A DNA stretch of 64,000 bases from assembly GCF_000196115.1 (NCBI RefSeq), contig NC_005027.1, forward strand, positions 124,001 to 188,000, written 5' to 3'. The notes beneath the pieces were generated by a model. The model was not told the DNA's origin, did not search any database, and saw only the letters and a list, made by a program, of their open reading frames with translations. Position 1 is the stretch's first letter; every line of letters starts with the position of its first letter. Both the position numbers and the translations under genes were made by a program. Positions 49,846 to 64,000 of the stretch are shown piece after piece. The stretch comes from Rhodopirellula baltica SH 1 (GTDB lineage: Bacteria; Planctomycetota; Planctomycetia; Pirellulales; Pirellulaceae).

Positions 49846-50259
49846 TCAGCGATTCAATTCGTTGCGAGTGAAGCAGTATTCTTCCACTATTTCACCACCA
49901 ATCAGGTGTTCCTGAATGATGCGTTCAAGCACCTCCGGGGTGCAGTCGCGATACCAAACACCATCGGGATAGACCACCGCGATTGGGCCGGCCGCACACA
50001 CTTGCAAACAATTGGCTTTGGTGCGAATGACACTGGCGTCAGGACCAACCAAACAGAGTTCCTTCAAGCGTCGCTTGAGAAAATTCCACGATTCTAAACT
50101 GGCGTCTTTGTCGCAGCACTTGGGCTTCGTCTGATCTGCACACAGAAAAAGATGCCGCTTCGCGGTTTGGATCCCAAGCTTGCCCGCGATCGCGCGCAAG
50201 GATTCAGAATCGCATGGATTGATGGCTTCCGTCGATTCGGAGTTAGGTTCAGAAGTCAT
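49846..50259 (-). CDS. [2Fe-2S] ferredoxin-like protein coupled to a sulfatase
   Basis: The protein has 137 residues. The thioredoxin-like ferredoxin fold is recognised by [20 protein letters not shown] with the first cysteines and [21 protein letters not shown] with the last two. [18 protein letters not shown] is also typical of this group. It probably carries a [2Fe-2S] cluster in the cytoplasm. Its ATG overlaps the TGA of the sulfatase gene by four bases, so translation is coupled. No sulfatase-maturation enzyme gene is adjacent. Why the two are linked is not clear. Confidence 0.88.
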
Positions 50260-51752
50260 TGGGGCTCCTTCGATGTCGTCGTTTCCGGCTCGGGCCTCGG
50301 TTCCCAAGCATCGTAGTGTTTCGCAGATTGTCCCGACCAATACGGCGAGGATCCCCACAGCGGGACCGTGGTCAACATGGATTCCCATGCTCCCAGTTCG
50401 TCATACAGTTCGCGAAAGCGGGATGGGTTCTGTGCCGACAAGTCATGGCTTTCCGAGACATCAGTGGAGACCTCAAACAGTTCGGCCGGACGATGCGAGG
50501 GACGCAGTAGTTTGTCAGTGCCATCCAGGATCGCGGCTTGCCCCTGCAATCGCCAATACAAACGACGATTGGGCGGTTCGCTGCCGTCTGCCAAATGAGG
50601 TGCCATATCAATTCCGTCATGTGTGCCGGACAAACGATTCATACGTTTGCGATTCGATGCATCTTCGTGGGACATGGGATCCGCGAGTGCCAACGGCTCT
50701 GCACCCGCAGCGGAACAAAACGTTGGCAGCAAATCCAACGAACTGACCACGCCGTCGTATAGCACACCAGCAGGAAATTTGGCCGGCCAAGTCCAGATCA
50801 TTGGGACGCGAATCCCGCCTTCTCGCATGGAACCTTTCACACCTCGAAGGGGTCCATTCCAACTGCCGTTGTTGGTCGCACCGCCATTGTCCGAAAAGAA
50901 AACCAACAACGTGTTTTCCCACTGCCCCGTCTCTTCCAAGTGCTCACGGATTCGCCCCACGCCGCGGTCCAACGCGTACATCATCGCGGCATAGGTCCGG
51001 CGTTTCTGATTCTGAATGTTTGCAAATCGTGCCAAATCAGCTTCCGTGGCGTGCATCGGCGTGTGCGGTGCGTTGTAAGAGAAGAACACAAACCAGGGTT
51101 GGTCCGGGTTGGCGGATTTGTGCTGATCGATGAACCGCAAACCTTCGTCGGTGAAAAAGTCCGTCAGGTACTCGCTGGAAAAATCGTCCACACGTTTCCC
51201 GTTCCGTTCGATGACGTGCTTCATCGTCGCAGGAAAGTAGTGATGACTGCCGGTGAGCATCCCGCAAAAATGATCAAAGCCACGGCGGTTGGGATGGTGC
51301 ATTTCGCCCATTCCCAAGTGCCACTTGCCAATCAAAGCGGTCGCGTAACCAGCTGCGCCGAGATGATCCGCCAGCGTCTTTTCGCTCGTCGGCAATCCAA
51401 GCAGCTCAGGCCGAGTCGCGTAATTCTCATCGGACGCGTTCAGGTTGCCTTCGTATCCAAACCGCCGAGGATCGCGGCTGGTCAGCAATCCCGCTCTTGA
51501 AGGCGAACACACCGCACTGGCAACATAGGCTTGCGAGCACAGCACACCGGATTCGGCCAGTCGATCTAAATTCGGTGTTTGCAACGTTTGGCTGCCCATG
51601 CATCCCATGTCACCGTAGCCCATATCGTCGGCCAAAATCACAACGATGTTTGGCGGGGTTGATTCAGCGGCACGCGAAGCTTCAGTGGCGAATACAAAAA
51701 TCAGTGGCAGAAAAACAAAACGAGAAACCGCGGCAAAATTGGTCGCTGGCAT
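50256..51752 (-). CDS. Secreted sulfatase
   Basis: About 498 residues from the ATG at 51750-51752, giving a signal peptide ([17 protein letters not shown]). The type I sulfatase N-terminal signature is [19 protein letters not shown] with the metal-binding acidic pair. The formylglycine site is C82 in [11 protein letters not shown], with the required C-x-P-S-R. FGKWHLG-type sequence is seen as [10 protein letters not shown], and [16 protein letters not shown] carries another metal site. It should cleave sulfate esters, most likely from polysaccharides. The frame is open a further ~150 bases upstream but without a signal. A ferredoxin gene follows, overlapping. Confidence 0.95.
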
Positions 51753-51962
51753 GTTGGCTGGGGCGGGGTTCGAACTGGAAGGCGGAAAGTCGGAGGGGCA
51801 CAGTTTATTTGACACCAAGGCGTCTACCCAAGATGCTAGCGACTCCAGCGACAAAGAAGACGAAAAACATCTCTTCCCCGTCGCTTCACAGGTGTTCATG
51901 CTTCAACAACAACACTGTGATCCCACCGCGTTTCGACGCACCTTCCCCACCTATTCAACGCA

Positions 51963-53417
51963 ATGTCCAATCCATCCTTCTTCGCAAAGGCTGTCGCTGC
52001 CTTTTGCTGTCTCGTTGCTTCGGACTCACACTTCGCAGTCGCCGACGCGGAGAATCGCCCAAACATTTTGTTCATCTTGGCGGACGATTTGGCGTGGTCG
52101 GACCTCGGCTGCTATGGGCACCCATGGCATGACACACCACATTTGGATCGGTTGGCATCCGAGGGGGCCCGCTTCACTCAAGCGTATTCGCCCGCACCCA
52201 TTTGTTCGGCCTCACGTGCATCCATCCTCACCGGCAAGACACCCGCTCGATTGCAGTTCGAATTTGTCACAAAGAACGAACCGGGACGACAGAAGATCGA
52301 TTTCCCAACGCCGATGTCGGCCCCTCCGTTGACTCTGAATCTGCCGCTTGAAGAACAAACCATCGCCGAGTGCTTGAAGGACGAGGGATATCAAACCGCG
52401 TTCTTCGGCAAATGGCATGTCAGTTCTCACCATGAACGCTATTTGGGATGGAGTCCAACGCACGGTCCCGCAAAACAAGGATTCGAGTTCGCGGAAGAAG
52501 ACTACGGAGCTCATCCTTACGACTGGAAACGTTCACCCGTTGCGACGATCAAAGAGCCTGGCAGATTTGCTCCTGATTCGATGGTCCAGCGTGTCGGTGC
52601 TTTTCTTCGTCAGGACCATGATCGTCCATACTTTGCAATGGCGTCTTCGTTTTATGTCCACACACCCGTTCGCACACCGTGCCAATGGTTGCGGGAAAAG
52701 TATGACGCTCGAGTTCCGGCAACTTCGAAGAAGCGAAACAATCGAATCGAATACGCCGCCTTTTTGGAAACATTCGATCATCACGTTGGTCAAATTCTCA
52801 ATTCACTTGAAGCATCGGGCAGAGCCGATCGGACCATCGTGATTTTAAATTCTGACAACGGTGGTCACCCGGAGTACACGGCCAACGCACCACTGCGCGG
52901 ATCAAAATGGAATCTGTACGAAGGCGGAATTCGCGTGCCGATGATCGTCCGCTGGCCAGGTGTTGTCCAACCGAAGACTGAAATTGACCGTCCGGTGATC
53001 GGGTACGACTTGCTGCCAACCATGGTTGCTTTGGCAGGTGGCAATCCACCGAAGTGTGATGGTGAAAGCTTTGCTGGATCGTTGCGTGGCGACTCTCCGC
53101 CAACCAACGAACAACATTCTTTGATTTGGCATTTTCCGTATTACCATCCTGAGAATGGGTTCGCCAAAGCGCCGGACTCGATCGGCATCGACGATTTCGC
53201 TACGAGCCGGACTCGACCGCAGTCTGCTATTCGGCGAGGCCAATTCAAGTTGTTGCAATTCGCCGAAGACAATCGAGTTGAACTGTACGATCTCTCCAAC
53301 GACATCGGCGAACTGCATGATTTGTCCACTCAGCAAGCGGACCTCGCATCAGAGTTGCAGCAAGAGTTGCGACAAACGCTCACGCGGCAAAATGCAAGAT
53401 TTCCGATGGCGAAGTGA
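51963..53417 (+). CDS. Secreted sulfatase, divergent partner
   Basis: The protein has 484 residues. Its signal peptide (SFFAKAVAAFCCLVASDSHF) is followed by NILFILADDLAWSDLGCYGH. The formylglycine site is C81 in PICSASRASILTG, with C-x-A-S-R, the alternative cysteine-type signature. FFGKWHVSSHHERYLGWSP and TIVILNSDNGGHPEYTANAP hold metal and substrate positions. The C-terminal YDLSNDIGELHDLS is typical. It is divergent from the other sulfatase with about 210 bases between them, which may contain a shared control region. The two differ in sequence, so they probably have different substrates. Confidence 0.95.
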   Translation: MSNPSFFAKAVAAFCCLVASDSHFAVADAENRPNILFILADDLAWSDLGCYGHPWHDTPHLDRLASEGARFTQAYSPAPICSASRASILTGKTPARLQFEFVTKNEPGRQKIDFPTPMSAPPLTLNLPLEEQTIAECLKDEGYQTAFFGKWHVSSHHERYLGWSPTHGPAKQGFEFAEEDYGAHPYDWKRSPVATIKEPGRFAPDSMVQRVGAFLRQDHDRPYFAMASSFYVHTPVRTPCQWLREKYDARVPATSKKRNNRIEYAAFLETFDHHVGQILNSLEASGRADRTIVILNSDNGGHPEYTANAPLRGSKWNLYEGGIRVPMIVRWPGVVQPKTEIDRPVIGYDLLPTMVALAGGNPPKCDGESFAGSLRGDSPPTNEQHSLIWHFPYYHPENGFAKAPDSIGIDDFATSRTRPQSAIRRGQFKLLQFAEDNRVELYDLSNDIGELHDLSTQQADLASELQQELRQTLTRQNARFPMAK

Positions 53418-54843: not shown

Positions 54844-55599
54844 TCAGTTGGCTGGTTTGCGACCGAGGAAAAGGTAGTACGGTGCCTTCACGAGCGGCAT
54901 GTAGGGCACGCTACCCAACCGCTCCTCACATCGTTCTATTTTGAATTGCCGATGAAGCATCGCAAGATGATCGCTGGATAAGTAAACGTTGTCCGATGCG
55001 AACCAGAGCGACCAAAACGTCCTCCTCAACCATCCGTGCTGGCGACTCGGTGCGGCAGCATGTTTTCGTGAGACGTGAAAGTCGGTCACCGCGATCACTC
55101 CGCCGGGCTTGAGAATCCGCCTGGCAATCAAAACGCTTTCGAACCAGTCCGGAATCATCGTCAGCGAATACGAAAACGTGACGACATCGACGCTGTTTTC
55201 AGGCAACTCAAACTGAGTCGCATCCGCGTGATGCAGCGTCACATTGCTAAGCTGGCGTTCTTCGATGCGTTCGGACGCGATCTGGAGCAGCGACGGCGAC
55301 AGATCAACCAAGTGAACTTCGGCAAGCGACTTGGAACGTTCTTCGATCGAGAACAAATTGTGTCCGGTCCCGGCACCAATATCGACCCACACACCATTGT
55401 CGGGAAAATCGACCCAAGACATCAGTTCCGAGCGTCCGTGCAGCAGCCTCGCACGAAACGAATCATAGTGGGACGCTTGACCTTCGTAGAAACTTTCCAA
55501 TCGTTCGCCATGCGTGTTACCACGAACGGGTCGAAACAACAAATGCCAAAGAATTTTCAGATCGTCAAAACGGGACGTCGGTTTGATGGCCTCGCTCAT
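54844..55599 (-). CDS. btaB: Betaine-lipid N-methyltransferase BtaB-like
   Basis: This 251-residue SAM-dependent methyltransferase has motif I as WVDIGAGTGHNLFSIEE, an acidic residue at the end of strand 2 (VHLVDLSPSLL) and the later strand VDVVTFSYSLTMIPDWFE. YEGQASHYDSFRARLLHGR near the N-terminus resembles BtaB-type sequences. It would add three methyl groups to diacylglyceryl-homoserine, giving the betaine lipid DGTS. Its ATG overlaps the btaA stop by four bases (ATGA), which supports the assignment more strongly than sequence alone. On its own it could be another lipid methyltransferase. Confidence 0.85.
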   Translation of the reverse strand: MSEAIKPTSRFDDLKILWHLLFRPVRGNTHGERLESFYEGQASHYDSFRARLLHGRSELMSWVDFPDNGVWVDIGAGTGHNLFSIEERSKSLAEVHLVDLSPSLLQIASERIEERQLSNVTLHHADATQFELPENSVDVVTFSYSLTMIPDWFESVLIARRILKPGGVIAVTDFHVSRKHAAAPSRQHGWLRRTFWSLWFASDNVYLSSDHLAMLHRQFKIERCEERLGSVPYMPLVKAPYYLFLGRKPAN

Positions 55600-56843
55600 G
55601 CCGCGACTCCAGCTGCCCCGCGTGTCTCAACACACTCACCGACGGAGTGTCCAAACAAATCAGCGATGTAGAAGCTGCCGTAGGTGTGCACCCGGTCCCG
55701 AGCATGCAGCGAACTCGCCAACTCATCGTGGTAGTGCAGCAAGTCACCAAGCTGAACCTGGCTGCCATTGTGCTGCAGCATCAATGGATTGACGAAGTCG
55801 ACTGCCAAAGCGGCGCTACGCCACAAAACGCGGGCGTCCGAGGTCGCTCGATTCAAAATGCTCTGCCATTCCGATGCGAGCAACTCGGGATAACGATCGT
55901 ACAACCAATCCATGTGGTCGAGCAGCACGAATCGCGAAATCGGCTGATCGTGCTCAGTCAAGAATCCTTCCACAGTATTGGTGTGTGTCTGAACACAATC
56001 CACCAAACCGTTCTTCAGTTCCGTGAAGTTCTCTTCCTTCAAATATTCCGGGCAGCAATCCGGGGTGTAGCTCCCTGTCAAATAGACTCGCCAAAAGTAA
56101 TTGTCTCGCAGCGGGAGCGTCTTGAAGACAGCCTCGATCCGGTCCTGAATGAATCCACCGATGCCACCGGGATAACATTGGTCCAACTGATTGCGTTGGC
56201 TGCGGGGCACGCCCAACATCGCAAGCGTCGTGTCACGACGCAAAGCCCAACGCAGCGGTTTGCTCCAGAGTAACCGATTGATCTCACGTTTCTGATAGAT
56301 CTCTCGCTGTTGATCAACCGATTCCGCTTGCAGCAATTCCGCAATCGCTTCCCTCAAACCCGCAGGACGCTTCAGGTAACCGTTGACCAACCAAGCAAAC
56401 AGTCCGGATGTGCCGCGAAAGTAGAAGCTCTTTCGGCGAGACGTCCCATCAAAGAAGTCCAAACGACGATCCCAAATCGCACGCGTGTCCGGTGTCAACG
56501 CACCGCGAACGTGCTTGTGATAGAGCGATTGCCAAGCGGGATGGTAACCACGGCCAAACACGTTGAAGAAATCGTCATAAGTCAGACATCGAATCGAGGC
56601 GCACTTCAATTCCAACAATGCATTTTGCAGCGGGTTCATGTCCACCGCATGAACTGACTTGGGTGCCTGCAGTGCATAATCCAACGCATTGCAACCCGCA
56701 GAGGTGATCACCAAAACGGAATCATCCGGTCCCAGCGAAAGCGCCTGCCGGTCAATCCGAGGATCTTCCCAACAAGTGTTGTAGACAAGGTTCTTTTGAT
56801 GAACGACTTTGAAGCACTTGTTGCCAAGCCAGTTTGCGACCAT
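55596..56843 (-). CDS. btaA: Diacylglycerol 3-amino-3-carboxypropyl transferase BtaA (DUF3419)
   Basis: About 415 residues from the ATG at 56841-56843; the frame continues upstream into the preceding gene, but that sequence is antisense-like. DUF3419 features are NLVYNTCWEDPRIDRQAL, VLVITSAGCNALDYALQAP, VHAVDMNPLQNALLELK and the late FVLLDHMDWLYDRYPELLAS. BtaA transfers the aminocarboxypropyl group of SAM to diacylglycerol, the first step of DGTS synthesis. Length equals characterised bacterial BtaA. It is preceded by the metallophosphoesterase gene and followed by coupled btaB. Confidence 0.93.
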   Translation of the reverse strand: MVANWLGNKCFKVVHQKNLVYNTCWEDPRIDRQALSLGPDDSVLVITSAGCNALDYALQAPKSVHAVDMNPLQNALLELKCASIRCLTYDDFFNVFGRGYHPAWQSLYHKHVRGALTPDTRAIWDRRLDFFDGTSRRKSFYFRGTSGLFAWLVNGYLKRPAGLREAIAELLQAESVDQQREIYQKREINRLLWSKPLRWALRRDTTLAMLGVPRSQRNQLDQCYPGGIGGFIQDRIEAVFKTLPLRDNYFWRVYLTGSYTPDCCPEYLKEENFTELKNGLVDCVQTHTNTVEGFLTEHDQPISRFVLLDHMDWLYDRYPELLASEWQSILNRATSDARVLWRSAALAVDFVNPLMLQHNGSQVQLGDLLHYHDELASSLHARDRVHTYGSFYIADLFGHSVGECVETRGAAGVAA

Positions 56844-56892
56844 GCGAAGTTGTCTTTCGATTAGGTGAGTGATTACCGAGTGAACGAGTGCA

Positions 56893-57789
56893 TCAGGCGG
56901 CGTAACCGCACGAGGAATCTTCGCCGTTGACCGACACGAGTTCTGTTGCGTCGGTACTTGGCGTTTTGCTGGCATCGAAACAACGACGCAGCGTTTCTTC
57001 TTGTGTGGGCAGACGAAGGAATAAGTCCTCGTCGTAGCGTCGGACCAAATGCAGTCGACCGTCATGACGTTCCACCAGTCCGGTGCAGTTCTCAACCCAA
57101 TCACCCGTGTTGCAGTACCACATCGAATCGCTGCTCACGATGTCAGGCGTGTGGATATGTCCGCAGATAACTCCGTCGCATTCGCGTTGCTTCGCGTGAT
57201 GCAGAATGCGGGATTCGAAATCACTGACAAAGCGAATCCAGCGTTTGACTCGGTCTTTCAGAACGGAACACAACCCATAGGGATTGCCTTCGCTTGGCTG
57301 CCATGTCCGATAACACCAACGGTTCATGCTCAGGCAGGTGTCGTAGAACGCAGTCGTCCCTTTGGACAACCACGGTGCGATGCTTTCGACGCGATCGAAG
57401 AGATCACCGTGAGTGATCAGAAACTTCCACCCTGTCAGTGTTTGCAAAACGAACTCGTTGCCAACTTCAAACCGTGGCAAAGTCGCCAAACAACCTGCGC
57501 GAAAGGCCGGATTACGCAGGAACGCGTCATGGTTGCCGGCGACGTAGTGAATCTTCGTGCCTCGTCGCGCCAAGCCGATCAGATGAGCAATGATCTCGTC
57601 GCAAACGCTCGACCAGTGCCAACCCGTATTGATCTTCCATCCGTCAATGAAGTCCCCCACCAAATACAGCGATTCGGGATGGAACTCACGCAGAAACGCC
57701 AGAAACTCGTCGGCACGTGAATGCTTGGATCCAAGATGCACATCGCTCACCAAGAGGGTCCGGACCGACGTCGGGGCGAGCCTCTGCAT
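56893..57789 (-). CDS. LpxH/PlcP-type metallophosphoesterase, first gene of the betaine-lipid operon
   Basis: About 298 residues from the ATG at 57787-57789; the frame extends to a TTG at 57831. Metallophosphoesterase motifs are LLVSDVHLGSKHSRADEF (D16-x-H18), YLVGDFIDGWK (GD), YVAGNHDAFLR (GNHD), LITHGDLFD and VICGHIHTPDI. By fold it resembles UDP-diacylglucosamine hydrolase LpxH, but the PlcP group, which cuts phospholipids to diacylglycerol under phosphate limitation, has the same fold and is often found with btaA/btaB. Its position 49 bases before btaA makes PlcP the favoured reading. LpxH is the alternative. Confidence 0.8.
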   Translation of the reverse strand: MQRLAPTSVRTLLVSDVHLGSKHSRADEFLAFLREFHPESLYLVGDFIDGWKINTGWHWSSVCDEIIAHLIGLARRGTKIHYVAGNHDAFLRNPAFRAGCLATLPRFEVGNEFVLQTLTGWKFLITHGDLFDRVESIAPWLSKGTTAFYDTCLSMNRWCYRTWQPSEGNPYGLCSVLKDRVKRWIRFVSDFESRILHHAKQRECDGVICGHIHTPDIVSSDSMWYCNTGDWVENCTGLVERHDGRLHLVRRYDEDLFLRLPTQEETLRRCFDASKTPSTDATELVSVNGEDSSCGYAA

Positions 57790-58050
57790 GCCAGCGTCCT
57801 TGGCTTGAAAGGGATGAGAACGACCAAACAAGACTCAACGATTTCCTGCGCTGAGTGACCGGCGAGAAACCCGGCGTCGATCGACCGTTGCTTGAAATTG
57901 ATTTCGAGCGAAGACTATCAACCGAGTGTGACGTTCTCGTTAACGCCCGATGCGGGTTGCAGGAAAATTCCCGAGCAAGACAAAGGCTCAAGTTCCTGAA
58001 CCATTTCGAAAACGCAAATCGGCAAGGTTGCGCAAACATCACTGCGCATA

Positions 58051-58084
58051 AAAAAATCGCCCGATGTGAGACACATCGGGCGAT
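58051..58084 (-). terminator. Terminator of the porin gene
   Basis: ATCGCCCGATGTG (58056-58068) pairs with CACATCGGGCGAT (58072-58084) around AGA, a 13-bp stem. On the minus strand it is followed by a T-run (AAAAA at 58051-58055 on the plus strand). It lies 33 bases past the porin stop. Confidence 0.92.
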
Positions 58085-58116
58085 CAAAATGCTTTCCTAG
58101 CTTCCGTCGTCGCGAC

Positions 58117-59754
58117 TTAGAATCGCGTTTGATACTGGAAGTAGAAGAAGTCGGCGTCCAAGTCCTGCACACCGGCGGTGGTGCTGTAGTACTTGCCCGA
58201 GTTGAAGTGCGAGTAGCCGATCAACGCACTGTTGCGTGGGTTGAGCGCGATCTGGAACAAGACATCGATCTCATGGCCTAGTTCGCGATCGCCCGCAGCG
58301 TTGCCAGGATTGCTTGGATTCATCACGACGTTAAACGGCGTCGTTTTTTCGTCCAACATGAAGTAGTGGTACCAAAGCACCAACTTGACTTTCTCACCGA
58401 AGAATGGCGTGATGAACTGTGCGTTGATGTCATGAATGTTTCGACGACCGAACAAATCCATGAAGCCCAAGTATTTGTGAGCCAATGGGAACATGTGGTC
58501 AAAACCATCGCCACCACGAAGTTCATCATCACCACCTGAAGCGTAGTCATACCAGAACCAAAACGTTGGTTTCCAATCGCTGGTCATCGCGACTTGACGT
58601 CCCAAGCCACCGGTGAAGAACCCGGCGCTGTGGTCGGTCCCGTCGCTGTTGGTTCCGAACTGAGTTCCGCCTTCGTATTCGTACAACCAATCCGAATCCG
58701 TTTTGCCAACGATACGGCTACCAATCGTGTGGTAGTCGAAATTGGTCGTGTCGTTGTTGAGACCCAGGTAGTAGTTTTCCCACTGACCCAACCAAGTGTC
58801 CTTGCGCGTCATGTACGCACCAAAGAACTGAACATCTTGGTTCGTGGCATCCCACTTGTCTTCGTAGGCAGCGGTGCGTTTCACGGGGTGGGTGTAGAAC
58901 GCATCGATCGAACCGTCTTTGTTTGCGTAGGTTGCACGCACACCGTCAAAGGTACGACGAGTGTTGGCCCAATCCAAAGGCGAAATCAATCGCTGAGCAC
59001 CCAACAACAACTCTTGGCGTCCACCGCGAACAGACAAGTTGTCCGTCAGTTGTGCTTCCAAGAACAAGTTCTGTGCCTCGCCACGGTTCTCTTCGATCGG
59101 ACGGTTGTTGAACAACTCCCCGCCCGAATCCGCATACAAGTACTCTCCGTAGAACCGGAGGTTGTCCGACAAACGCCAGTTGGCAAACATGCGGTAACGA
59201 GTCAACCAAAAGTTGTCATCGTTGCCGGTGATGCCCAATCCACGGTGGTTGTTTTCGTTGTGATAGCGAACACGTGCTTCACCACCCACATCCAACGTGC
59301 CGTTGAACATTCCCTTCAGTGAGTCACCGAAGAAAGACGGACCGTCGTAGCATGGGTCATCCAGGTAGCTGAAGTCGTTGGCATAGAAGACGCCTTGGTA
59401 GGCACCTTTCATCTTTGCCATCGCAGCTTCCTTTTTCTTCTTTGTGCAGCATCCATTTGCACAGCAGGTGCAGGGAGCTGAGTACGAAGCGTAGGGGTCC
59501 GAGTAGGTGGACGAATCCACAACTGGTTCCGCGATTGGCGACTGCGATTCAACAATCGAGGAAGCAGCGGGCGCTTCGCTCGGAGAAGTCGGCGAGGGCC
59601 CAGGTTCCGTCAGAGCCCCTGAGTCCTGTTGAAAGACGAGGACCTCAACCGGTTCGAGACCGGAAGTGTCTTGAGCGTGAGAGTGAGTGGAAATGGCCGC
59701 TGTTGCGATCGCGATCGCACTTAGCAAGCGGCGTTTCCAATTGCGTTGGGACAT
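58117..59754 (-). CDS. Outer-membrane porin of the alginate-export family
   Basis: The protein has 545 residues. After a signal peptide (LSAIAIATAAISTHSHA) comes a Pro/Ser-rich stretch and a cysteine cluster (CTCCANGCCTKKKK, ~residues 97-110). The barrel follows with typical strands: LDVGGEARVRYHNENNHRGL, WLTRYRMFANWRLSDNLRFY, LSVRGGRQELLLGAQRLISP and RTFDGVRATYANKDG; the last residues (FFYFQYQTRF) end in Phe. It matches the alginate_export pattern, a family that includes general and substrate-specific porins. It sits divergent to the nitrate-type transporter, so nitrate or anion passage is possible but not shown. Confidence 0.87.
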   Translation of the reverse strand: MSQRNWKRRLLSAIAIATAAISTHSHAQDTSGLEPVEVLVFQQDSGALTEPGPSPTSPSEAPAASSIVESQSPIAEPVVDSSTYSDPYASYSAPCTCCANGCCTKKKKEAAMAKMKGAYQGVFYANDFSYLDDPCYDGPSFFGDSLKGMFNGTLDVGGEARVRYHNENNHRGLGITGNDDNFWLTRYRMFANWRLSDNLRFYGEYLYADSGGELFNNRPIEENRGEAQNLFLEAQLTDNLSVRGGRQELLLGAQRLISPLDWANTRRTFDGVRATYANKDGSIDAFYTHPVKRTAAYEDKWDATNQDVQFFGAYMTRKDTWLGQWENYYLGLNNDTTNFDYHTIGSRIVGKTDSDWLYEYEGGTQFGTNSDGTDHSAGFFTGGLGRQVAMTSDWKPTFWFWYDYASGGDDELRGGDGFDHMFPLAHKYLGFMDLFGRRNIHDINAQFITPFFGEKVKLVLWYHYFMLDEKTTPFNVVMNPSNPGNAAGDRELGHEIDVLFQIALNPRNSALIGYSHFNSGKYYSTTAGVQDLDADFFYFQYQTRF

Positions 59755-60469
59755 GGCGTTGTGCCTCCTTCATGGAGTGGGCTGTGAATTCGAATCATCC
59801 GGATCGATTTGGATCGCCTTGGTTCCTTCCGCCTGAGATAAAGGAAGTGCAATGAAAACGGAGATGAAACGAACTCAACATCCAAAACTTCATAGCGACC
59901 CGTTTTGGCTATCGGCGCATTCAAAGTGATGCTGAATCAACAAACGCCGAGTGTTTCAATATGCATCCCCACCGACCGCACCCAAACGTTGCAATGATCA
60001 AAGTCTCCCAACTCATTCAGCAACGCTTCTGCCCTGTTCACGAGTGATTGCGGTGGTGTTTTCGAGCAATCACTCGCAACCGATTGGGCCGCGATTCTGG
60101 GGTTACGGTGAGGCCAACCCCGCCAAAACCCGTTTAAGAATGGGCATCCCTCCCCAGGCAAACACGGACAGATTCCGGCCTGAAACAGCTCTCAAGGCAC
60201 GTGCCCAATCCGCGTGCAGAGTCGCTCTCAGTCTGCTGAAGACTTAAGCAGACCCAACGCGACCGACGATTTCCCAATCGACTGCCGAACCGCCTTGGCG
60301 CACTTTCCGCTCTCTAACGCCGCCTAAGGTTCGCTCACGCACCACAAGAACCAGCAGCGCACATCGCGCCCCTGCATCCGGCATGACGCTTGCGATTCGC
60401 TAAACCTGCATCACTGATGCCACTTTATTGCTCACGGTTTCAGCACTCTTCTCGACGGACAGTTTTCTA
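59755..60469. other. Intergenic region between the porin and nrtA
   Basis: About 715 bases between divergent genes, with no convincing gene. A perfect 11-bp inverted repeat CGAGTGATTGC (60041-60051) and GCAATCACTCG (60066-60076) is present, described separately. Promoters for both genes are expected here. No RNA gene was recognised. Confidence 0.6.
60041..60076. promoter_or_regulatory. 11-bp inverted repeat, possible operator
   Basis: CGAGTGATTGC and its exact reverse complement are separated by 14 bases (centre-to-centre about 25). There is no T-run, so it is not a terminator. It could be a regulator site or an RNA hairpin. This reading is inference. Confidence 0.35.
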
Positions 60470-62089
60470 ATGCTTTTTCGCGTTCCCGGCTTCTGCCTCG
60501 AATCACAGAGCGTTCCGCTCATCTCCACCGAATCAGAATCCAATTCGCGAAGCGAATCAGCGGGAACGCGTCAAACGGCTAGCTCAAGAACGACGTCCGG
60601 ATCCGCGTGGAAGAAAGCGATCAGGACCACCAACAAACTCATGCTGCTTGGTTGTGTCGCTCTCGCCGCTGTCTTCACCGGATGTGCCGACTCCGGAGTG
60701 TCACTGGAGGATCTCGAAGCCGCCGCTGCAAAAGTCGACATCAGCAAAATTGAAGTGGACGTCAATCCAACTGAGTCTGCTGCAATGTTGGACTTGGAGA
60801 AATCGGATTTGACATTCGGCTTCATCAAACTGACCGACTGCGCTCCTTTGGTGATCGCCAAAGAGAAGGGCTACTTCGACGACGAAGGACTGAACGTCAC
60901 TTTGGAAACCCAGTCGAACTGGAAGATCCTTCTCGACAACGTCATCAATGGGCAACTCGACGGCGCACACATGTTGGCCGGCCAACCGATCGGTGCAACG
61001 ATCGGTGTCGGAACCAAGTCGCCAATCGTGACCGCTTACAGCCTGGACTACAACGGCAATGGCATCACGGTCAGCAACGAAGTTTGGGCACAGATGCAGG
61101 AGAACGATCCTGAACTGAAGAGCCCCACACCGAAACATCCCATCAGCGCCGCCAGCCTGAAACCGATTGTCGAGGATTACCTGCAAGACGCGGGCGAACC
61201 ATTCCCGATGGGCATGGTGTTTCCTGTTAGCACTCACAATTACGAGATTCGATATTGGCTGGCCGCGTCAGGGATTCATCCCGGCATGTACACCGAATCT
61301 GACATCAAAGGCTTCACGGACGCACAGGTCAAATTGTCGACGGTGCCACCGCCTCAAATGCCTCAGAACCTGGAAGCGGACATCGTCAAAGGTTACTGCG
61401 TTGGCGAACCGTGGAACCAAAAAGCGGTTGTGACTGGCATCGGTGTTCCAGTCACCACGAACTACGACATCTGGAAGAACAACCCTGAAAAGGTCTTCGG
61501 CGTGACCGGAGAATGGGCGGAGAAGAATCCACAAACTCACTTGGCCGTGATCAAGGCTCTGATCCGTGCTGGCAAATGGCTGGATGCCACCGATGACTCG
61601 GGCAAATTGGTCAATCGCGAAGAAGCCGTCGAAATCCTCAGCCGCAAAGATTATGTCGGTGCGGAGAAAGAGGTGATTGGCAACTCGATGATGGGCACGT
61701 TTGTCTTCCAATCCACCGACGTTCGCGAGATGCCCGACTTCAACGTGTTCTTCAAACACGAAGCCAGCTACCCGCACTACAGCGATGCGATTTGGTTCCT
61801 CACACAGATGCGACGCTGGGGACAAATCACAGAATCCAAACCCGCCAGTTGGTACGCCGAAACGGCCAAGAAGATCTACAAGCCTGAGATCTATCGCCAA
61901 GCCGCCGAGCTTCTAATCAGCGAAGGCAAACTCGATCCAAATGAAATCCCGGCTCCGGACTACGACGGTTACCGCGCAGTCACGACCGAGTTCATCGACG
62001 GCAACAAATACGACGCGAAAGATCCGATTGGCTACATCAATAGCTTTGAAATTGGCAACAAGGATGACGAGTCCTTGGCCAAGAAGTAG
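60470..62089 (+). CDS. nrtA: Nitrate-type ABC transporter substrate-binding lipoprotein
   Basis: About 539 residues from the ATG at 60470; a TTG at 60428 is also in frame. A long Ser/Arg-rich leader of ~55 residues precedes a lipobox region ([16 protein letters not shown]). The mature part matches NrtA/CmpA binding proteins: [60 protein letters not shown] and [20 protein letters not shown]. It binds its anion (nitrate, possibly bicarbonate or cyanate) outside the inner membrane for the downstream permease. The leader is unusually long, and the true start is uncertain. Confidence 0.88.
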
Positions 62090-63335: not shown

Positions 63336-64000
63336 ATGAGCGCAGTTCTCGAAACATCACCCACGATCAAACGCCGAGCGATCTCGTCGGCCCCTAAGCC
63401 GATCCTACAGATGCGTGGAGTCTGCAAGGGCTATGGCAGCGGTGTGACGCGAAACGAAGTCCTGCAGAACATCAACCTCAACATTCGCGAGGGCGAGTTC
63501 CTGGCGGTGGTCGGGTTCAGCGGCAGTGGCAAAACCACGTTCACGCAGTTGTTGGCTGGATTGATCTCGCCTGACAAAGGCACGATCACGATGAATGACG
63601 AACCTGTCAAAGGACCGTCACCAGACCGCGGGATGGTGTTCCAAAACTATTCGCTGCTGCCATGGTTGACCGTCCGAGGCAACATCGCACTTTCGGTCAA
63701 CGCGGTTTTCAAAGAATGGTCACGTGAACAACGCCGCGACCATGTTGAAAAATTCATCGACATGGTCGGTCTGAGTCACGCTGCTCATCGCCGACCTCAT
63801 GAGCTCTCCGGTGGAATGCGTCAACGGACCAGCCTCGCTCGAACGTTGGCACTCAAACCCAAAGTCTTGTTGCTCGACGAGCCACTCTCCGCACTCGACG
63901 CACTGACACGTGGCCAACTCGGTGACGAAATCCTGAAGATCTGGAGCGAAGAGAAACAGACGTGCGTGATGATCACCAACGATGTCGACGAAGCCATCAT
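63336..64000 (+). CDS. nrtC: Nitrate-type ABC transporter ATPase, truncated at the window edge
   Basis: The reading frame is open from the ATG at 63336 to the last base, about 221 codons, so the C-terminus is missing. A leader of about 25 residues precedes [13 protein letters not shown]. Walker A is [14 protein letters not shown], the Q-loop is [20 protein letters not shown], the signature is [17 protein letters not shown] and Walker B is [16 protein letters not shown]. The final visible residues, [12 protein letters not shown], carry Asn where the switch histidine usually stands (TH-D-VDEA). It would power the NrtA-NrtB importer. Confidence 0.92.

Follow-up and report, generated by a model that had tools for sequence, protein, structure and literature searches.

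The 64,000-base stretch of the Rhodopirellula baltica SH 1 genome analysed here (the window hereafter, positions 124001-188000 of the single-contig genome NC_005027.1 of 7,145,576 bases) carries three tightly packed minus-strand genes, plcP, btaA and btaB, preceded by a conserved promoter-like element. Our analysis suggests that the three genes are probably a lipid-remodelling operon making the betaine lipid diacylglyceryl-trimethylhomoserine (DGTS). The genes and their junctions, in window coordinates and in the direction of transcription, are as follows.

56893-57789, minus strand: plcP-like metallophosphoesterase gene, ATG start, 298 amino acids
56844-56892, minus strand: gap of 49 bp between the plcP stop and the btaA ATG
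55596-56843, minus strand: btaA, DUF3419 family, ATG start, 415 amino acids; predicted S-adenosylmethionine (SAM):diacylglycerol 3-amino-3-carboxypropyltransferase
55596-55599, minus strand: ATGA overlap of 4 bp between the btaA stop and the btaB start
54844-55599, minus strand: btaB, SAM-dependent methyltransferase, ATG start, 251 amino acids; predicted to trimethylate the homoserine head group

The first-pass annotation had described this arrangement, including the gap and the overlap, and re-reading the frames in the window returned every position; its assignments of phosphoesterase motifs, DUF3419/BtaA features and a methyltransferase were borne out by domain matches. Alternative starts further upstream give longer frames for plcP (TTG at 57831) and btaA (GTG at 57104), and the alignments with close relatives begin at residue 1 of the ATG-started proteins. 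The btaB query used in the searches was 54844-55596, with the start codon left off.

Identity of the three proteins

The phosphoesterase matched the domains Metallophos_2 (3e-12) and Metallophos (1.5e-11), and carries the metal-ligand motifs SDVHLG, GDFID, GNHD, HGD and CGHIH. Its ligands D16, H18, D46, N86, H127, H211 and H213 are invariant in all 18 aligned PlcP-like proteins; seven metallophosphoesterase metal ligands are listed in the portion of PMC5016852 used here. A rival explanation is that the protein serves lipid A synthesis as LpxH and adjoins btaAB by chance. Public records lend themselves to this explanation, as LpxH and PlcP are both annotated there as UDP-2,3-diacylglucosamine diphosphatase, and so does the structure model (mean predicted local distance difference test score, pLDDT, 80.0), whose top solved folds are LpxH structures; this match does not separate the two enzymes, because they have a common metallophosphoesterase fold. 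Against LpxH, the protein scored 48 and 38.9 bits with the two curated NCBIfam LpxH models, far under their cut-offs of 134 and 190.35. According to the same portion of PMC5016852, Okada et al. (2016) found that only LpxH has the conserved His replaced by Arg, and this Arg of the LpxH motif GNRD binds the phosphate of lipid X. We observed GNHD in place of GNRD in all 26 planctomycete rows of our first tree, including the window protein and a second PlcP-like protein of the genome, and the diagnostic Arg in four gammaproteobacterial LpxH (that of E. coli annotated, the other three chosen by similarity to it). GNHD is also seen in a Bacteroides LpxH-like row and, when read from its annotated start, in a Thiodictyon row; the latter had appeared to have GNRD because the frame used began upstream of that start.

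The first tree, of 37 rows with some very divergent ones, placed the second copy of the genome, and not the operon copy, beside LpxH at 86/87, which favours the LpxH explanation. Five divergent rows were removed (three weak planctomycete matches, the Bacteroides row and a Thioclava row), two second copies were added and the Thiodictyon row was cut to its annotated start. The resulting 34-row tree split the four LpxH from 30 PlcP-like proteins, the Sinorhizobium meliloti and Pseudomonas aeruginosa homologues among them, at 100/100, and paired the second copy of the genome with that of G274 at 99/99. The first-pass annotation had asked for such a phylogeny, and the window phosphoesterase falls outside LpxH in it.

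The genome also encodes an LpxI with both LpxI domains (3.3e-33 and 1.6e-50), in a run with LpxD-like and IspE-like frames (those two by eye), and an LpxB slightly above its cut-off (191.4 versus 190.25 bits). As the two-domain LpxI covers the lipid A step, no LpxH is needed, and LpxH reportedly does not co-occur with LpxI in one organism (PMC5016852, in part). The second, true lpxH envisaged by the first-pass annotation was not found in the genome: the second copy, at 5721864-5722625, is PlcP-like, under the LpxH cut-off and ~40% identical to the operon copy. Glycyl-tRNA synthetase-like and succinate dehydrogenase subunit-like frames neighbour it, and no lipid gene was recognised adjoining it (all by eye). 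The model scores, the GNHD motif, the 34-row tree and the presence of LpxI lead us to reject the LpxH identity as very improbable, and support a PlcP-type enzyme with predicted phospholipase C activity.

BtaA matched PF11899 (DUF3419) over the full length of the domain (E 9.9e-124, 413.8 bits, residues 10-394), the single match to this family in the genome, and is predicted to form diacylglyceryl-homoserine (DGHS) from SAM and diacylglycerol. Its structure model (mean pLDDT 84.1) has no solved-structure match at E 0.001 or better. BtaB, predicted to trimethylate DGHS, matched Methyltransf_31 (2.8e-19) and 28 NCBIfam families, staying under the cut-off in all 25 shown. Some planctomycetes encode what looks like a divergent DUF3419 subfamily with weak PF11899 matches (e.g. 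G353:C43, G178:C83 and G396:C3). A 948-residue open frame in G060 was considered as a btaA fusion and rejected: its extension overlaps what by eye looks like a flagellin frame, and we therefore take it as spurious in GC-rich DNA.

Co-occurrence, gene order and known systems

DUF3419 is encoded in 86 of the 392 genomes sampled from the phylum. We examined co-occurrence in the class subset, i.e. all 40 members with the window's genome included, calling BtaA strong at E <=1e-110, BtaB present at E <=1e-20 and PlcP strong at E <=1e-90. Strong BtaA was found in 27 of the 40. BtaB is present in all 27 of these genomes versus none of the other 13 (Fisher p 8e-11, relatedness ignored), and strong PlcP in 25 of the 27 versus two of the 13 (G369 and G257; Fisher p 2e-6, again ignoring relatedness), with weaker PlcP matches (3.5e-29 to 1e-6) in four of the 13. 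G353, which has a divergent BtaA match (7.6e-23) and no BtaB at E 1e-20, was counted among the 13. Loss of btaB was considered for four genomes in which no btaB adjoins btaA (4 of 29 relatives' loci) and was rejected, as each holds btaB elsewhere.

The three-gene arrangement recurs among relatives. We examined the best 80 of 569 named btaA loci, with up to 5 kb of DNA on each side. Counting same-strand neighbours, btaB lies downstream of btaA in 53, plcP lies upstream in 17 (a distant homologue in L339, and ~1 kb off in L291) and 14 have both genes. Neither gene was in reach in 24, some of them at contig ends, and neither was found on the opposite side or strand at any of the 80 (best match per locus). 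We also examined the regions of unlinked or second plcP copies in eight genomes. A glycosyltransferase frame adjoins plcP in six of them, confirmed as PF13528 in G291, G121, G137 and G257, of GT4 type in G369 and recognised by eye in G381; there is no such neighbour in G274 and none was recognised in G373. The pairing of plcP with glycosyltransferases is another context for phosphorus-free lipids reported in the accessible text of PMC4796936. Planctomycetes thus show what looks like a second module of PlcP with a PF13528 glycosyltransferase (L089, L091, L093 and L095 by domain, L092 by eye), and the pairing occurs in Parabacteroides too (L042).

The plcP-btaA-btaB arrangement is already known from marine bacteria of another phylum. 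The type 1 cluster of Phaeobacter sp. MED193 (Sebastian et al., PMC4796936, in part) has the same three families, with btaA and btaB downstream of plcP, and the window has this layout on one strand; plcP of that strain is reported there to be essential for lipid remodelling. The two differ in the host, planctomycetes being unnamed in the main text of PMC4796936, and in the R. baltica element with its TTAAC and GTCAC half-sites; the likeness is one of gene families, not of proteins compared directly. The homologues in Sinorhizobium meliloti are 36.5% (PlcP), 29% (BtaA) and 30% (BtaB) identical to the window proteins, the last over 169 columns with the methyltransferase adjoining its btaA. The btaA-like frame overlaps the methyltransferase gene there as in R. 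baltica, whereas plcP lies ~390 kb from btaAB in the S. meliloti record (strain Ak57) and 49 bp from btaA in R. baltica. In that record btaA is unannotated and matches in two pieces, and we infer its identity with the characterised genes. PhoB control is reported for S. meliloti btaAB (PMC3972451, in part), and a comparable control would be our reading for R. baltica. In P. aeruginosa, the plcP homologue compared is followed by a glycosyltransferase gene, and its product shares 41% identity with the window PlcP over 247 columns; it was a plasmid copy, presumably equivalent to PA3219 as judged from this neighbour. The plcP-agt pair PA3219-PA3218 is described as making glycolipids, not a betaine lipid (PMC8528852, in part).

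Planctomycete BtaA already has a place in a published BTA1 tree, basal to the BTA1 of marine eukaryotes (PMC10685587). As far as the cited part of that study goes, it gives the tree placement, and the operon context and plcP come from the present analysis. We also considered whether the BTA1 fusion of marine eukaryotes arose from a btaAB operon of planctomycetes; the gene order does not favour this, because btaA-btaB is found in S. meliloti too. No report of plcP-btaA-btaB in planctomycetes, or of DGTS in a Rhodopirellula relative, was found in the open-access literature searched, most subscription journals lying outside it.

An Alginate_exp porin gene (58117-59754) precedes the operon on its strand, and a gene encoding a Phenol_MetA_deg domain converges on it from the downstream side. 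Between the porin gene and plcP lies the following feature.

58055-58085, minus strand: terminator-like hairpin of 14 pairs with a T tail, behind the porin gene

A scan of the region gave three hairpin sites versus 5.1 expected from shuffles; the case for this hairpin is therefore its length, the longest of the three, and its conservation in most congeners. With this hairpin on the porin side and a convergent gene downstream, the operon appears to stand by itself. Elsewhere in the window we noted a divergent pair of frames that look sulfatase-like by eye (50256-51899, minus strand, and 51963-53417, plus strand), an NMT1_2 substrate-binding protein of an importer of the ATP-binding cassette (ABC) type for nitrate, sulfonate or similar (60428-62089, plus strand) and an accompanying ABC ATPase-like frame (63381-63995).

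A promoter-like element before plcP

The promoter-like element before plcP is what is new in this analysis. Aligning the plcP upstream regions of five congeners revealed a block conserved amid diverged sequence.

57912-57943, minus strand: promoter-like element TTAACGAGAACGTCACACTCGGTTGATAGTCT, a candidate PhoB-type site with a -10, 122 bp from the plcP ATG

The consensus is TTAAC-N6-GTCAY-N10-TANNNT, and the copy in the window, where it is present once, has the half-sites TTAAC and GTCAC. The spacing is 11 bp between the half-sites and 10 bp between GTCAY and the -10-like hexamer. The sequence upstream of E. coli pstS, read by eye as GTCAT-ATTCCTTACA-TATAAC, has an equal 10-bp spacing, where we take TATAAC to be the pstS -10.

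A slightly relaxed pattern has one match in the whole genome and occurs at plcP in 8 of the 13 genomes of the genus. With the genus-wide pattern, 12 matches were obtained across the 13 genomes versus 17 for a reversed control; its weight lies in the 8 of 12 matches that are upstream of plcP, not in the total. Partial elements score 12/13 in G396, 11/13 in G395 and 10/13 in G399, and the sole plcP of G402 is a different copy. We scored 67 upstream regions (50 of plcP and 17 of btaA-first loci) against shuffles. Of these, 18 scored at least 11/13 (shuffle p 0 to 0.03), and every one of the 18 is a plcP region. Ten of them are circular, because they come from the genus and family used to derive the motif. 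The other eight, near-exact, all belong to a single genus in another family, outside the motif definition, and count as one independent recurrence. The score of 9 for G403 in this test reflects a start misplaced by its plcP fragment; the pattern search finds its site intact. Scores of at least 10 were found in 5 of 16 named plcP loci (shuffle p 0.005 to 0.075), and the second half-site drifts to AACA in L268-L270. The second plcP copies of the genus, that of R. baltica SH 1 among them, showed no such element. When 2.46 Mb of the genome were scanned with a matrix built from 12 sites, one of them that of the window, plcP scored 39.5 bits and the runner-up position 15.2. These patterns tie the element to plcP in these lineages, and its layout is that of a PhoB-family site.

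Within the genus, plcP adjoins btaA in 8 of the 13 genomes and lies on a separate contig from btaA in G392, G400 and G401. G402 has no DUF3419 match, and G403 keeps remnants: plcP and btaB each lack their first part, and 51 residues are left of btaA. As the Stieleria-like relatives L268-L271 have the intact gene order, the split and decayed forms look derived. At the decayed locus (L110, G403:C1 ~6201800-6202600) the upstream promoter-like element is intact. Where plcP is apart from btaA (L103, L104 and L105), the next sizeable same-strand frame encodes a small phosphatase-like protein (by eye).

Proposed lipid remodelling and possible phosphate control

In the proposed pathway PlcP, as an intracellular metal-dependent phospholipase C, would remove the phosphate-bearing head groups of phospholipids and release diacylglycerol. 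BtaA would then move the 3-amino-3-carboxypropyl group of SAM onto diacylglycerol, and BtaB would methylate the nitrogen of the resulting DGHS three times, giving DGTS, a zwitterionic and phosphorus-free substitute for phosphatidylcholine (PC). In proteobacteria, PlcP is reported to convert phosphatidylethanolamine (PE), monomethyl-PE and PC into diacylglycerol and phosphoalcohols on phosphate shortage, and BtaA and BtaB to convert diacylglycerol into DGTS (PMC3972451 and PMC4796936, both in part). By analogy, the same chemistry is most likely here. The first-pass annotation had suggested a complete remodelling pathway in this planctomycete, and the PlcP-type assignment, the gene order and the co-occurrence of BtaA, BtaB and PlcP support it. 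The lipids listed for Stieleria mannarensis JC639 in the part of PMC12254169 consulted are PC, PE, two unidentified phospholipids and two unidentified lipids. Its genome (L269) carries the same operon; the substrates are present in this strain and a DGTS product is possible.

Several observations weigh against this reading of the operon. G024 and G167 have btaAB and no strong PlcP, and the second PlcP-like gene of R. baltica could do the job instead. In the three congeners with separate contigs, plcP retains the element yet is apart from btaAB; G398, whose operon copy is intact, has no element (score 8/13), and none of the 17 btaA-first upstream regions scored above 9/13. The identity of BtaB to the S. 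meliloti protein is just 30%, and no lipid or expression data for R. baltica were found in the literature searched. It is also conceivable that the operon makes another head group, either unmethylated DGHS or a product of BtaB acting on a different lipid. BtaB does belong to a broad methyltransferase family in which it reaches no NCBIfam cut-off among those shown, and btaB can be unlinked from btaA; however, BtaB accompanies every strong BtaA of the class set and none of the other genomes, and its gene overlaps btaA in the window, which makes this explanation unlikely.

In our reading, the putative DGTS operon would be induced by phosphate shortage through a PhoB-type regulator. The statement of the first-pass annotation that no clear PhoB site lies upstream holds for the strict E. 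coli-type Pho box, which was not found upstream of plcP even with 3 mismatches allowed; the conserved PhoB-like element there is a candidate site. Constitutive production of DGTS, or production on another cue such as salt, nitrogen or temperature, keeps some weight and is rather doubtful. This alternative draws on the missing strict box and on a search of 120 20-kb stretches together with the window (~2.46 Mb with one 6-kb overlap, a third of the genome). PhoU, PstA, PstC and PstS gave no match there at E 1e-5, and the PstB, PhoB and PhoR matches (~24-36% identity in the top rows) resemble general ABC and two-component proteins. In the same 2.46 Mb the element was found at plcP alone, and the btaAB copies apart from plcP do not have it, both of which also fit a cue other than phosphate. 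Against this alternative stand the half-site and -10 spacings of the element, laid out like those of a PhoB-family promoter, and the link of plcP to phosphate starvation in other bacteria (PMC4796936, in part).

We tentatively propose, giving it somewhat less than an even chance, that TTAACR-N5-GTCAYA-N10-TANNNT is a planctomycete Pho box that would put membrane lipid exchange under a PhoB-type phosphate switch. TTAACA is a Bacillus-like Pho half-site, and the putative box may combine it with an E. coli-like GTCAY half-site. No planctomycete Pho box or PhoB-type lipid switch was found described in the open-access literature searched.

For genomes in which annotation names both PlcP and LpxH as LpxH, checking for LpxI and for GNHD versus GNRD offers a way to tell the two apart. 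The promoter-like element gives a concrete handle on phosphate control in Planctomycetota. Planctomycetes are frequent in samples from the sea and other waters, and DGTS is often read as an algal marker. If our reading is true, a phospholipid/betaine-lipid swap of the Rhodopirellula type would add a bacterial source of DGTS.

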